Virus record (IMG/VR): IMGVR_UViG_3300042868_009989
Coordinates: 1 to 31,182 of that record
DNA: 31,182 bases
Source of the DNA: a virus
Strand: one strand, 5' to 3'
A program made the position numbers and the translations under genes. Below the pieces are notes generated by a model. That model was not told the origin of the DNA, did no database searches, and saw nothing but the letters and a program-made list of their open reading frames with translations. Within the stretch, counting starts at the first letter, position 1; each line of letters starts with the position of its first letter. This document shows positions 14,639 through 27,456 of this stretch, in pieces.

Positions 14639-15118
14639 CTATTTTGTGGATGTGAGCCGGGCGCGGGCTGCGGCCTTGGCTTTGGTGAAAGGGTCTGTTG
14701 CTTTCGCTTTGTAGGTCTCGCGGGTTGAGTTCGCTTTGCGGTACTTGGTGCAGTCGAAGTTCGTGTCATTGCCGCTCAGGATGTCACGGATGCCCACGAC
14801 ATAGTGACTGATCAACGCGCGGGTGACGCCAAGCTCTCGGGCGATCTCGGCTTGGGATTTTTTCCCGTTGAGTTGATCGAGGCCGGATGCCAAGGCGAGG
14901 GCGTGAATGGTGGCGGGTAGGTTGTTGGACTGAAGCAGCAGGCCGATGACTCGAGCGAGGATGAGCGACTGGTTCCTGATGACAGCATCCTCCCGCATGC
15001 GGATGATCTTGCGGGCGGTGAATAGGCTGACGCCGAGGTCATCCGCGATGATCTCCTCCTCGGTATCGATGAGGGCGGCCATGTCGTGCGTGTAGCTCGC
15101 TTGATTCTCGTGCAGCAT
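14639..15118 (-). CDS. HTH DNA-binding protein (159 aa), possible late regulator
   Basis: A 159-aa protein starting MLHENQASYTHDMAALID. A helix-turn-helix is clear at about 88-112 (KSQAEIARELGVTRALISHYVVGIRDIL). The C-terminus is basic (RETYKAKATDPFTKAKAAARARL). It is the first gene left of the iteron-like repeats and upstream of the packaging genes, so it could regulate late transcription or bind the repeats. A small-terminase-like role is an alternative because many small terminases have the same HTH, but the 13468 gene fits that better. Confidence 0.7.
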   Translation of the reverse strand: MLHENQASYTHDMAALIDTEEEIIADDLGVSLFTARKIIRMREDAVIRNQSLILARVIGLLLQSNNLPATIHALALASGLDQLNGKKSQAEIARELGVTRALISHYVVGIRDILSGNDTNFDCTKYRKANSTRETYKAKATDPFTKAKAAARARLTSTK

Positions 15119-15230: not shown

Positions 15231-15368
15231 TACGGGGTCTACGGGGTTAAGTTTCCAACTTCTCCGTTTGGTTGTGGGTTTCCCTTTATATATTTTCTCG
15301 CGTGTAAAAGTAGAAAACATGACCCCGTAAGACCCCGTAAACCGCCACTTGTACGGGGTGTACGGGGT
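15231..15368. repeat. Iteron-like cluster of TACGGGGT repeats; candidate replication origin
   Basis: Six copies of an 8-mer occur as three close pairs. Direct TACGGGGT copies are at 15231-15238, 15240-15247, 15352-15359 and 15361-15368; inverted ACCCCGTA copies are at 15322-15329 and 15332-15339. Copies within pairs are 9-10 nt apart, about one helical turn. The outer pairs continue into a further shared stretch (TTAAGTTTCCAACTT versus CTAGTTTCTAACTT). Between them is an AT-rich stretch (TTTATATATTTTCT). The cluster lies right after the primase-helicase stop and upstream of the HTH gene, in a gap of about 257 nt without genes. This is the expected look of an origin, though regulator binding sites would look similar. 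Confidence 0.6.
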
Positions 15369-15375
15369 CTAGTTT

Positions 15376-17613
15376 CTAACTTTTTTCACCTGTGATGATG
15401 TAGCGGTTGATTTTCCTGTCGGTGTCCGGCCTCCCAAGTTTGACCTGTCCCCTGTCCATTTTTGCCAATCTCGATAGGGCAGAGCCACATGCGCCGTGCC
15501 ATGAGAAGAGCGCCTTCGCTTGGTCGCGCACCTTGCTGTGGGTGTTGGTGAGGCGTGCTTCGACATCGAGCGCGGTGAGTTCGGCAGGCAAGTCGTGCCA
15601 GAGTCCCATGTCCTCGATGGCGATCTCGAGCAGCTCCTCGAGGCGGCGTGCTGGCGAGTGGGAGTCGACCCAGTCGACGAGTTCGGGGTCACGCCATGCG
15701 ATGACACCGGAGCGGGTGTCGTGCAGGTGGGTTGGCACCTCCCACTGCATGAGGCGATCGGCGAGGGCCGGCAGTTCTTGGCGGATGGCGATCTGCAGTT
15801 GCTTCTTGCCTTCGGGGGTGCTGGTGTCGATCGGCAGGGCGATGCGATGGACATGCAGGATGGCTATCTTATCGGAGACATCGGCATCGAGCGGCGGGAT
15901 GATCTGGAGTGCCTCGGGGGTGTCGTTGCAGCAGAGCATGCAGCACCAGACTGGGCGCACGCTGATCGACGATGAGTGGCGCTTGCGGAGCTGGATCATG
16001 TGCGGGTAGATGGATCCCTTGAAGGCGGCCCCGAAGGCGCGTCGGGCGCGGATGTCGGTGTGGCCGGTGCAGTCGTCGATCAGGAGAAACTCGGACCCGA
16101 CAAGGTCGTCATTCCAAAGGATCCCTCCCGACCATGCCTCGTAGGGGTTGGCGGTGCGCCCACCGAGGAGTTGGGCGACTGTCCATGCGAGCAATGACTT
16201 GCCGGAGTTGATTTCACCGGCGAGCACCATCATCGGCGCGGGGATGTGGGTGTAGCTGCGGACGGCTTTGTAGCGGCCGGAGAGCCACGAGATGAAGACA
16301 TCCATCGCGGTGTCATTGGGGAATGCCTGGCTAATGATGCTATCGATGAGTGGCGTGTCGCCTTCTGCGGGTTGGGGCAAAATCGGTTCGCCAGTGATGA
16401 GGATCTGCTGCCCGTTGTTGTCGAGCATGATCCCTTGTCGGTGGCCGGCGATGACACCCGACCATTGGACCGCACCATCGATCTCGCGGTCGTCGATGGC
16501 TGCCTTGACGGCTGCTGTCAGCTCCTTGGCCGACTCATATTCGCCAGCGAGGTGGCGGGTGATACCAGTGACCACCGGACCTCGCTTGCTGTGGATCGCG
16601 TAGCCGTTGCCTTGTCGGATGAGGTACTTGCCCGATGGCGCGTCGTAGAAGACATCCTCGGGGGCGAATGACTTGCCAGTGGATCCTGCGGGTGGGTTGA
16701 GCATCGCGGCGACCCGCTGCTCGATCTGCCAGTCGGGATTGTTGAGTTGGGATGAGAAGACCGCGCGTGCGGCGTCGACGGCCTCGGTCGGTTGGAGGCT
16801 GCGGCGCAGGGTGCCATCATACGAGCGGAGGCGCTCGACGGTCTCGTGCTCGGTCATGTCGTTGAGTCGGCACCACCATGCGGCCTGCATGAGCCATGTG
16901 TGGATGCCGCTGTGGGGTGGTTCGGGGAATGGCCCGTGCTTGTCGCGCAGGATCAGTCTGCCAGGTGAATTTGATTGGACTGGCTTGAGCAGCGGTTGGC
17001 TTTCAGCCACCACCTCGCCGGGATCGAACATAGCGGTGCGGCTCAGGTCGACCCATGCCTCGGGATCCCAGCTCACGAAGCAAAGGCGGCCGGGGTCTTT
17101 GCATGCGGTGTCGATGGTGAGGTGGGCTTTGGCGTACTCGGTCTCTGCGAGAATGAAAGCGGCCTTGTGTTGCTCGGGCGTCTGGCATTGCGGGATCCGC
17201 GCCACGGCCTTGACGCCATCGCCACTTGGTGAGCGGAAGGCGGCGACCACTCGCGGGTCGGCTTGCAGGATTTCGCGGATCTCTTCGACCGTCCACCCGA
17301 CATTGTCTTTCGCGTCGAAGTCGAGTTGGAGGAAGCCGGAGTGGGCAAAGCGGCCTTCGGAGATTGCGGCCTTGCGTGCGCCACGGGTGACTTCGCCCGA
17401 GATGCTGACTGCTTGCAGCATGCGCTTGGCTTTCGCGTATCCATCCTCGTCATTGGCGGCGAGCATCGCCCGCAGCTCGAGTACTTGATTTTGGAACTCA
17501 TCCGAGCGGATGGCGTCGATGAGGTCTGCGAGGGTGAGTGATCCGGCTGGGCTGCGTGCCTCGGCTGAGTCATAAAGGTCGATCTTGGTAGGTGCTTCGG
17601 TAGTAGTGGTCAT
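15376..17613 (-). CDS. AEP-type primase fused to SF3-like helicase
   Basis: A 745-aa replication protein. The N-terminal domain (about 30-200) is a BT4734/VirE-N-like archaeo-eukaryotic primase. It has the metal-binding pair in LQLDFDAKDN (Asp98, Asp100), the nucleotide-binding loop SPSGDGVK (128-135) and DTACKDPGRLCF (168-179). A linker region (about 230-300) is helical, PriCT-like in position. The C-terminal ATPase has Walker A GEINSGKS (466-473) and Walker B FLLIDDC (509-515), with a later NDTPEALQIIPP sensor-like segment. It would prime and unwind at the origin. It begins by ATGA overlap with the upstream helicase gene and ends 8 nt from the repeat cluster. Confidence 0.88.
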   Translation of the reverse strand: MTTTTEAPTKIDLYDSAEARSPAGSLTLADLIDAIRSDEFQNQVLELRAMLAANDEDGYAKAKRMLQAVSISGEVTRGARKAAISEGRFAHSGFLQLDFDAKDNVGWTVEEIREILQADPRVVAAFRSPSGDGVKAVARIPQCQTPEQHKAAFILAETEYAKAHLTIDTACKDPGRLCFVSWDPEAWVDLSRTAMFDPGEVVAESQPLLKPVQSNSPGRLILRDKHGPFPEPPHSGIHTWLMQAAWWCRLNDMTEHETVERLRSYDGTLRRSLQPTEAVDAARAVFSSQLNNPDWQIEQRVAAMLNPPAGSTGKSFAPEDVFYDAPSGKYLIRQGNGYAIHSKRGPVVTGITRHLAGEYESAKELTAAVKAAIDDREIDGAVQWSGVIAGHRQGIMLDNNGQQILITGEPILPQPAEGDTPLIDSIISQAFPNDTAMDVFISWLSGRYKAVRSYTHIPAPMMVLAGEINSGKSLLAWTVAQLLGGRTANPYEAWSGGILWNDDLVGSEFLLIDDCTGHTDIRARRAFGAAFKGSIYPHMIQLRKRHSSSISVRPVWCCMLCCNDTPEALQIIPPLDADVSDKIAILHVHRIALPIDTSTPEGKKQLQIAIRQELPALADRLMQWEVPTHLHDTRSGVIAWRDPELVDWVDSHSPARRLEELLEIAIEDMGLWHDLPAELTALDVEARLTNTHSKVRDQAKALFSWHGACGSALSRLAKMDRGQVKLGRPDTDRKINRYIITGEKS

Positions 17614-26728: not shown

Positions 26729-27456
26729 AAAATGCCCATCGGCGAGATCCAAGTAGTTCCTTCCTTGATCACATGCCAAGCCTGCCATGCGCCGGTGCGA
26801 TCGTTGATGATGCCGTAGAGCCAACCGTTGCGCCATGCGAGCTTGGCGGGTGTGCGGTCGGCGTAGGACAGCGCATCGATGTCGGCAAGGCAACCGACAG
26901 AAAAGCTCGCCTCGCCATCGATGTGGCGGGCGGTGTAGACATCGGGCTTGTGGGTGTGGCCGTGCAGGCAGGCGCCCCAGTTCTCGAAATGCGCCTTAGC
27001 CGGGTACATGGTGGCGCGGAAGCCATGGATCAGCTTCGGTCCTCCCTCGGGCATGCGCAGGTACTTGCCGACATGATACGGCACCCATGCGATCTTGCGC
27101 TTTTTGAACTCATCCTCCGAGGCTTGAGCGAGCTTCGCACAATGTTCGCGGAGCATGCCGTCCGAGCACTTCGTCGAGTGCATCCAGATCCGATCGTCAT
27201 GGTTGCCGAGCGTGAGAAAGTTCGGGCGGAAGGCGTCGAGAAAATCGAGGCCGCATTGGTAGTCATCCGAGATGCCGTCGGCTTTTTCTTCGGGTGATGC
27301 ACCACGGCGCAGCGGCGAGAAATCCCACAGATCGCCGAGGTGGATGCGATGGTGCGGCTTCCAATCGTCGGCGAACGCGAGAAACTTTTTCTTCGCTGCC
27401 TCGCAGACCAGACCGCCGTGGTTATCGGCGGCGACTATGAACTTTTTGTAGGCCAT
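26725..27456 (-). CDS. Calcineurin-like metallophosphoesterase
   Basis: A 243-aa product from ATG 27454-27456 (MAYKKFIVAADNHGG); an alternative start at 27480 adds 8 residues. The metal-binding motifs are in order: AADNHG (D-x-H), HLGDLWDF (GD), TLGNHDDR (GNHD), IHGF and CLHGHTHKP (GHTH). This is a phosphodiesterase or phosphatase, perhaps acting on nucleotides, DNA or RNA ends. It overlaps genes on both sides. It sits past the lysis genes, in the region that often holds accessory functions, rather than with replication. Confidence 0.88.
   Translation of the reverse strand: MAYKKFIVAADNHGGLVCEAAKKKFLAFADDWKPHHRIHLGDLWDFSPLRRGASPEEKADGISDDYQCGLDFLDAFRPNFLTLGNHDDRIWMHSTKCSDGMLREHCAKLAQASEDEFKKRKIAWVPYHVGKYLRMPEGGPKLIHGFRATMYPAKAHFENWGACLHGHTHKPDVYTARHIDGEASFSVGCLADIDALSYADRTPAKLAWRNGWLYGIINDRTGAWQAWHVIKEGTTWISPMGIL

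Follow-up and report, generated by a model that had tools for sequence, protein, structure and literature searches.

Origins of replication are rarely located in uncultured phages. The locus studied here raises the question of whether a compact group of short repeats, lying at the very end of a primase-helicase gene, is the site at which such a phage begins to replicate, and of what might recognize it. The sequence analyzed, hereafter the window, is the whole IMG/VR record of 31,182 bases, in which an initial annotation had placed a candidate origin at this position. In our reading, the segment at 15231–15382 is likely, with a probability of about 0.8, to be a replication origin whose TACGGGGT iterons are bound by the C-terminal winged helix of the primase-helicase, with the wing at residues 728–733, and Asp732 especially, contributing to recognition of the iteron's variable left part. 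The structure itself is real and conserved, and is most likely an origin of an already known kind; its interest lies in a natural, coupled change of the wing and the iterons.

Anatomy of the iteron cluster and its neighboring genes

A search of both strands of the 31-kb record finds six exact copies of TACGGGGT, all within 15231–15368, against 0.19 expected by chance per window; at least six copies occurred in 0 of 100 dinucleotide shuffles. The copies start at 15231 and 15240 on the plus strand, at 15322 and 15332 on the minus strand, and at 15352 and 15361 on the plus strand, and so form three doublets in the orientation +, −, + with start-to-start spacings of 9, 10, and 9 nt. Both the number of iterons and their arrangement as two direct pairs and one inverted pair, with copies 9–10 nt apart, had thus been described correctly, as had the contact with the primase-helicase gene, whose stop codon (15376–15378) falls inside the third iteron unit. 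Two other elements of the initial annotation need qualification. The longer repeat unit of about 30 nt is real, the outer copies (15231–15261 and 15352–15382) being 87% identical over 31 nt, but it is not confined to the outer pairs: each doublet heads a unit of ~31 nt, TACGGGGTnTACGGGGTnnAGTTTnnnACTT, of which the middle doublet has an inverted copy with 79–82% identity. Likewise, the core at 15262–15307 exceeds the window in AT content (59% versus 43%), but only modestly, as 6.4% of all 46-nt windows are equally AT-rich.

Unit 1 (15231–15261, plus strand) consists of TACGGGGT at 15231–15238 and 15240–15247 followed by TAAGTTTCCAACTT, and is separated from unit 2 by the core, which contains TTTATATATTTTC and is presumed to be the unwinding element; an AT-rich element is also seen in the alignment of relatives. 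The inverted unit 2 (15306–15339, minus strand) has TACGGGGT at 15332–15339 and 15322–15329, followed by CATGTTTTCTACTTTT, while unit 3 (15352–15382, plus strand) has it at 15352–15359 and 15361–15368, followed by CTAGTTTCTAACTT, and overlaps the primase-helicase stop codon.

The primase-helicase itself (15376–17613, minus strand; 745 residues) has a BT4734-like N-terminal domain (Pfam PF08800, E = 2.8e-18), a D5/SF3-like helicase core, and a C-terminal winged helix. The helicase core is recognized by Foldseek, which matches the full-length AlphaFold model, of moderate confidence, to the NrS-1 CTR, poxvirus D5/E5, SaPI5 PriRep1 (7pds), and SCCmec Cch, with E-values of 1e-5 to 1e-9 for the NrS-1 CTR and D5 and of ~1e-4 for PriRep1; the Pfam family DUF5906 stays below cut-off. 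The C-terminal domain (codons 654–740; 15394–15654, minus strand), which we propose to be the iteron-binding domain, is predicted by AlphaFold2 to be a winged helix with a mean pLDDT of 85.9, and structure searches return the winged helices of Zur, FurB, FoxO, and Cdt1 at moderate Z-scores of 5–6.4. Beyond the cluster lie, all in the same direction, the gene for a 159-residue HTH protein (14639–15118, minus strand; Pfam HTH_3 below cut-off), a gene for a 142-residue protein, and the terminase genes. The nearest counterpart of the large terminase is encoded by the Akkermansia phage Moulinsart (35%), a likeness that hints at a Verrucomicrobiota host.

Conservation among relatives and parallels in known systems

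Among the primase-helicase relatives that we fetched from viral contigs, many show the cluster at the matching position, immediately 3′ of the gene, down to ~50% protein identity, and in relatives at ~50–62% identity the three-doublet layout is kept while the repeat has changed. The repeat is still TACGGGGT in L179, and is TGCGGGGT in L011, L173, L178, and L181, CTTAGGGGT in L183 and L184, and TGGGGGGT in L249, L253, L256, L257, and L264; single relatives carry TGCGGGGA (L265), CTAGGGGT (L245), and TGCTGGGGT (L266). In some of the more distant relatives, among the carriers of CTTAGGGGT, TGGGGGGT, TGCGGGGA, CTAGGGGT, and TGCTGGGGT, the cluster lies 0.2–1.6 kb further 3′. Given that the cluster is kept 3′ of the gene over this range, and that its repeats change together with the wing, a replication origin recognized by the adjacent primase-helicase is the best-supported reading of these sequences. 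The available DNA 3′ of the gene holds no such cluster in L171, L174–L176, L182, L185, and several others, and the origin of these phages may therefore be elsewhere. L174–L176, which lack GGGGT iterons, instead have TAGCGCCGA repeats ~250–400 nt beyond the stop codon of the primase-helicase gene on its 3′ side. These repeats precede an HTH-like gene of convergent direction and could be operators or a replaced origin.

To look beyond the close relatives, we used a strict detector, which requires two doublets of one 8-mer to face each other in opposite orientation no more than 250 nt apart and gives no match in 6 Mb of Markov-simulated sequence. It flags the window and most relatives with clear iterons, as well as L020/L040, L050, L057, L061, and L126, whose primase-helicase genes have little or no detectable similarity, and Bordetella phage BPP-1. 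A DNA search of annotated phages gave no match, and a pattern search of a genome collection gave 74 matches, none of them in a relative, and so pointed to no host. Many TACGGGGT doublets in the collection appear to be coding, and are due to chance or unrelated.

The arrangement resembles several known systems. In SaPIs and in SCCmec Cch2 the origin, a putative one in the latter, lies directly downstream of the helicase gene and is bound by the C-terminal domain of the helicase, after which such initiators (SaPI Rep, SCCmec Cch2) load themselves as helicases (PMC7581432). As in the SaPI Rep/ori systems, including that of SaPI5 PriRep1, short iterons lie here directly downstream of an initiator helicase gene (PMC7581432), but the window is from a tailed phage with a different host rather than from a satellite, and it combines a BT4734-like N-terminal domain with tight doublets and a third doublet. 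SCCmec Cch2 likewise has a D5-type helicase, which binds direct repeats just downstream of its gene via its C-terminal domain, but its system has three 5-nt iterons and separate primase proteins and is not a phage (PMC7581432). In the crenarchaeal plasmid pRN1, the primase-helicase ORF904 also ends in a C-terminal winged helix, and the origin, ~100 nt with a long inverted repeat, lies just 3′ of the replication gene, although it has no iterons (PMC4234260).

Phage P4 offers a further parallel. According to literature cited in PMC4234260, its alpha protein has a winged-helix origin-binding domain. In the annotated P4 record, crr lies directly 3′ of alpha and consists of TGTTCACC 8-mers in mixed orientation, several with starts 9–11 nt apart. 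Common to both are 8-bp iterons, their spacing and mixed orientation, an AT-rich stretch between them, if only a mild one in the window, and a position 3′ of the primase-helicase gene. P4 differs in having two clusters (ori and crr) where this record, possibly a fragment, has one, in its Toprim-type primase where the window has the BT4734-like domain (PF08800), in its iteron TGTTCACC, and in a C-terminal domain that lacks detectable sequence homology to ours. The P4 alpha winged-helix structure is not among the structural matches listed, and P4 is not flagged by the detector, its opposing sites not both being doublets. When profiles were compared, the C-terminal domain showed no detectable homology to P4 alpha or to two distant primase families, L126 and L050.

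Covariation of the wing and the iterons

We compared near-identical phages with different iterons, namely those with TAC iterons (the window, L003, L004, L005, L008, and L014) and those with TGC iterons (L006, L007, and L009). Their primase-helicases are 98–100% identical to that of the window (98–99% for the TGC phages), and all three TGC phages share R728T, T731I, D732H, and R733K, together with S580A, relative to the TAC phages. As modeled by AlphaFold, residues 728–733 (R-P-D-T-D-R in the window; 15415–15432, minus strand) form the wing of the C-terminal winged helix. Over ~4.3 kb of aligned DNA, 31 sites perfectly separate the two groups, 27 of which fall into two patches, 7 in codons 728–733 and 20 in the iteron region, with 4 elsewhere. 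The 13 codons between the wing and the iterons contain no separating site, a pattern that speaks against a diverged block having simply hitch-hiked. The third doublet takes part in the change, with the same new repeat in all TGC phages. These near-identical phages thus differ near the origin in little but the iterons and one wing of their presumed reader.

The pattern extends to the wider family, where Asp732 is present in all relatives with clear TAC iterons and His732 in all with clear TGCGGGGT iterons; L266, with its variant iteron TGCTGGGGT, has Arg at this position. A second, independent switch separates L178 (His, TGC) from L179 (Asp, TAC), and in a tree of residues 1–640, which leaves out the C-terminal domain, both switches fall on strongly supported branches and run in the same direction. 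The later-found L210 (TAC, Asp) and L265 (TGC, His) agree with the pattern. Only two independent switches between Asp and His are firmly supported, a number with which a sign test cannot reach significance, and the wing and the iterons, lying <250 nt apart, could move jointly by recombination. For the distant families (L020, L050, L057, L061, L126, and L163), in which profile comparison gives the wing alignment no support, the wings were matched up visually with the last aromatic residue as anchor, and they are excluded from the evidence.

Chemically, Asp can act as the acceptor of a hydrogen bond from N6 of adenine, and His as a donor to O6 or N7 of guanine. This chemistry would fit a pairing of Asp with A and of His with G at iteron position 2. 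We regard it as a tentative possibility, at odds slightly short of even, that origin specificity in this family is largely set by a few wing residues, with Asp732 reading A and His732 reading G at iteron position 2, and that phage lineages have changed origin type time and again through joint alteration of the wing and every iteron. If so, the wing/iteron pairing would be a natural, legible code for origin recognition and incompatibility. Joint change of specificity in an initiator and its origin is a long-standing question, and natural pairs of near-identical phages that differ in wing and iterons make it directly testable.

Alternative functions, proposed mechanism, and similar clusters elsewhere

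Repeated sites between replication and late modules could also be bound by a regulator, and the cluster, in the sense of the genes, immediately precedes the HTH gene and is close to where the terminase and late genes take over. That it represents operators of the 159-residue HTH protein, or of another regulator controlling the genes between the two modules, is nevertheless very improbable. The HTH protein, which had been put forward earlier as an alternative iteron binder, was not found encoded 3′ of the primase-helicase gene in six iteron-bearing relatives (L006, L007, L014, L173, L178, and L179), and L014 (TAC) and L006/L007 (TGC) share the same replacement gene despite their different iterons. 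L009 (TGC) has an HTH gene 79% identical to that of the window and terminase genes that are nearly those of the window and of L008 (TAC). The iteron type does not track the HTH protein and follows the primase-helicase wing instead, and no sigma-70-like site within the cluster emerged from a promoter scan. The same kind of comparison bears on a possible pac or cos site for packaging, recognized by the small terminase that is encoded ~1.1 kb further on; the terminase genes do come next in the same direction, but we give this reading hardly any weight. The window (TAC) and L009 (TGC) have TerS and TerL proteins that are 97.6% and 98.4% identical, while the TerL of L014 (TAC) and of L006/L007 (TGC) is only 27–28% identical to that of the window, so that terminase identities cut across the TAC and TGC groups and the terminase does not track the iteron type. 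On this factorial comparison of the relatives, we rejected both the HTH protein and TerS as iteron readers.

Together, units 1 and 2 make up a long inverted repeat whose folding lies well below that of shuffles (z = −4.4), reminiscent of the stem-loop origin of pRN1 (PMC4234260), and the repeats might be no more than the arms of a conserved RNA or DNA hairpin, acting as a terminator or structural element. Such a stem does not need the third doublet, which nonetheless acquires the same new repeat in TGC phages, nor would it by itself force matching direct repeats or a concomitant change of the DNA-binding wing; moreover, the one terminator-like match in a terminator scan is on the strand opposite to the gene and no better than in shuffles. 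We therefore judge a mere hairpin to be highly unlikely. A role as an accessory control site of the primase-helicase, of the type of P4 crr or of a copy-control locus, which would leave the actual origin at another place, is unlikely as well, if less markedly so. It has a precedent in P4, where it is crr that follows alpha directly on the 3′ side, ~4.7 kb from the annotated origin; but the 31-kb record, which may be an incomplete fragment, contains no second cluster of these iterons, and the SaPI cluster 3′ of rep does serve as the origin (PMC7581432). Cumulative GC skew, proposed earlier as a check, shows no inflection at 15.2 kb, but is confounded by gene direction and uninformative here.

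Returning to the origin reading, it draws on the position, layout, and conservation of the cluster, the predicted fold of the C-terminal domain, and the covariation of wing and iterons, from which we infer binding, loading, melting, and initiation. The C-terminal winged helix of the primase-helicase would bind the iterons directly behind its own gene, with wing residues 728–733, Asp732 in particular, helping to read their variable left part. By analogy with SaPI Rep, SCCmec Cch2, pRN1, and P4, one helicase assembly would sit on either side of the core, on the doublets that oppose each other there, the seated assemblies would melt the AT-rich core, and the helicases would then load onto the exposed strands and prime synthesis.

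An origin predicted from its anatomy can be sought by the same anatomy in other phages, and candidate origins are obtained in this way for many, including Bordetella phage BPP-1 and Verrucomicrobia phage P8625. In BPP-1 (L225, 26607–26710), the interval from bbp28 to bbp27, on the 3′ side of the primase-helicase gene bbp29, contains inverted TTGCCTCG doublets with a 9-nt period that may be the real BPP-1 origin; a stem-loop origin was earlier proposed at the end of the primase-helicase gene, near 27,177 (PMC4234260). In P8625 (L226, 4774–4888; L302, 1–130), several CTATCGGCA copies directly 3′ of the DNA primase/helicase gene, at a record end that continues at the start, make up another candidate iteron origin. 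Two relatives of L126, L297 (64% identical) and L298 (54%), have differing repeats 3′ of the primase-helicase, TTCACGGGT and an AAGGGT/AAGGTAAT type, and their C-terminal ends differ from that of L126 too; differing repeats at the same place indicate that iterons diversify in the L126 family as well.

Other clusters were seen in less familiar surroundings. TACGGGGT/ACCCCGTA clusters without an adjoining primase-helicase gene end occur in L034 (71–321, just upstream of a terminase-small-subunit-like gene), L037 (826–1098), L042 (5238–5510), L195 (4906–5167), L212 (4117–4378), and L215 (4349–4603). The related contigs L202 (5898–6035), L208 (6416–6503), and L209 (2919–3056) each have a perfect 10-nt tandem array of ~9 to 14 copies of GTAGCACCCC that begins right after a stop codon. 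Finally, GTGCGGGG doublet clusters are found near the end of large ORFs ending in ...WLG... in L084, L087, L118, L129, L134, L144, L157, and L166; the encoded proteins belong to another family, but the repeats are laid out in much the same way.
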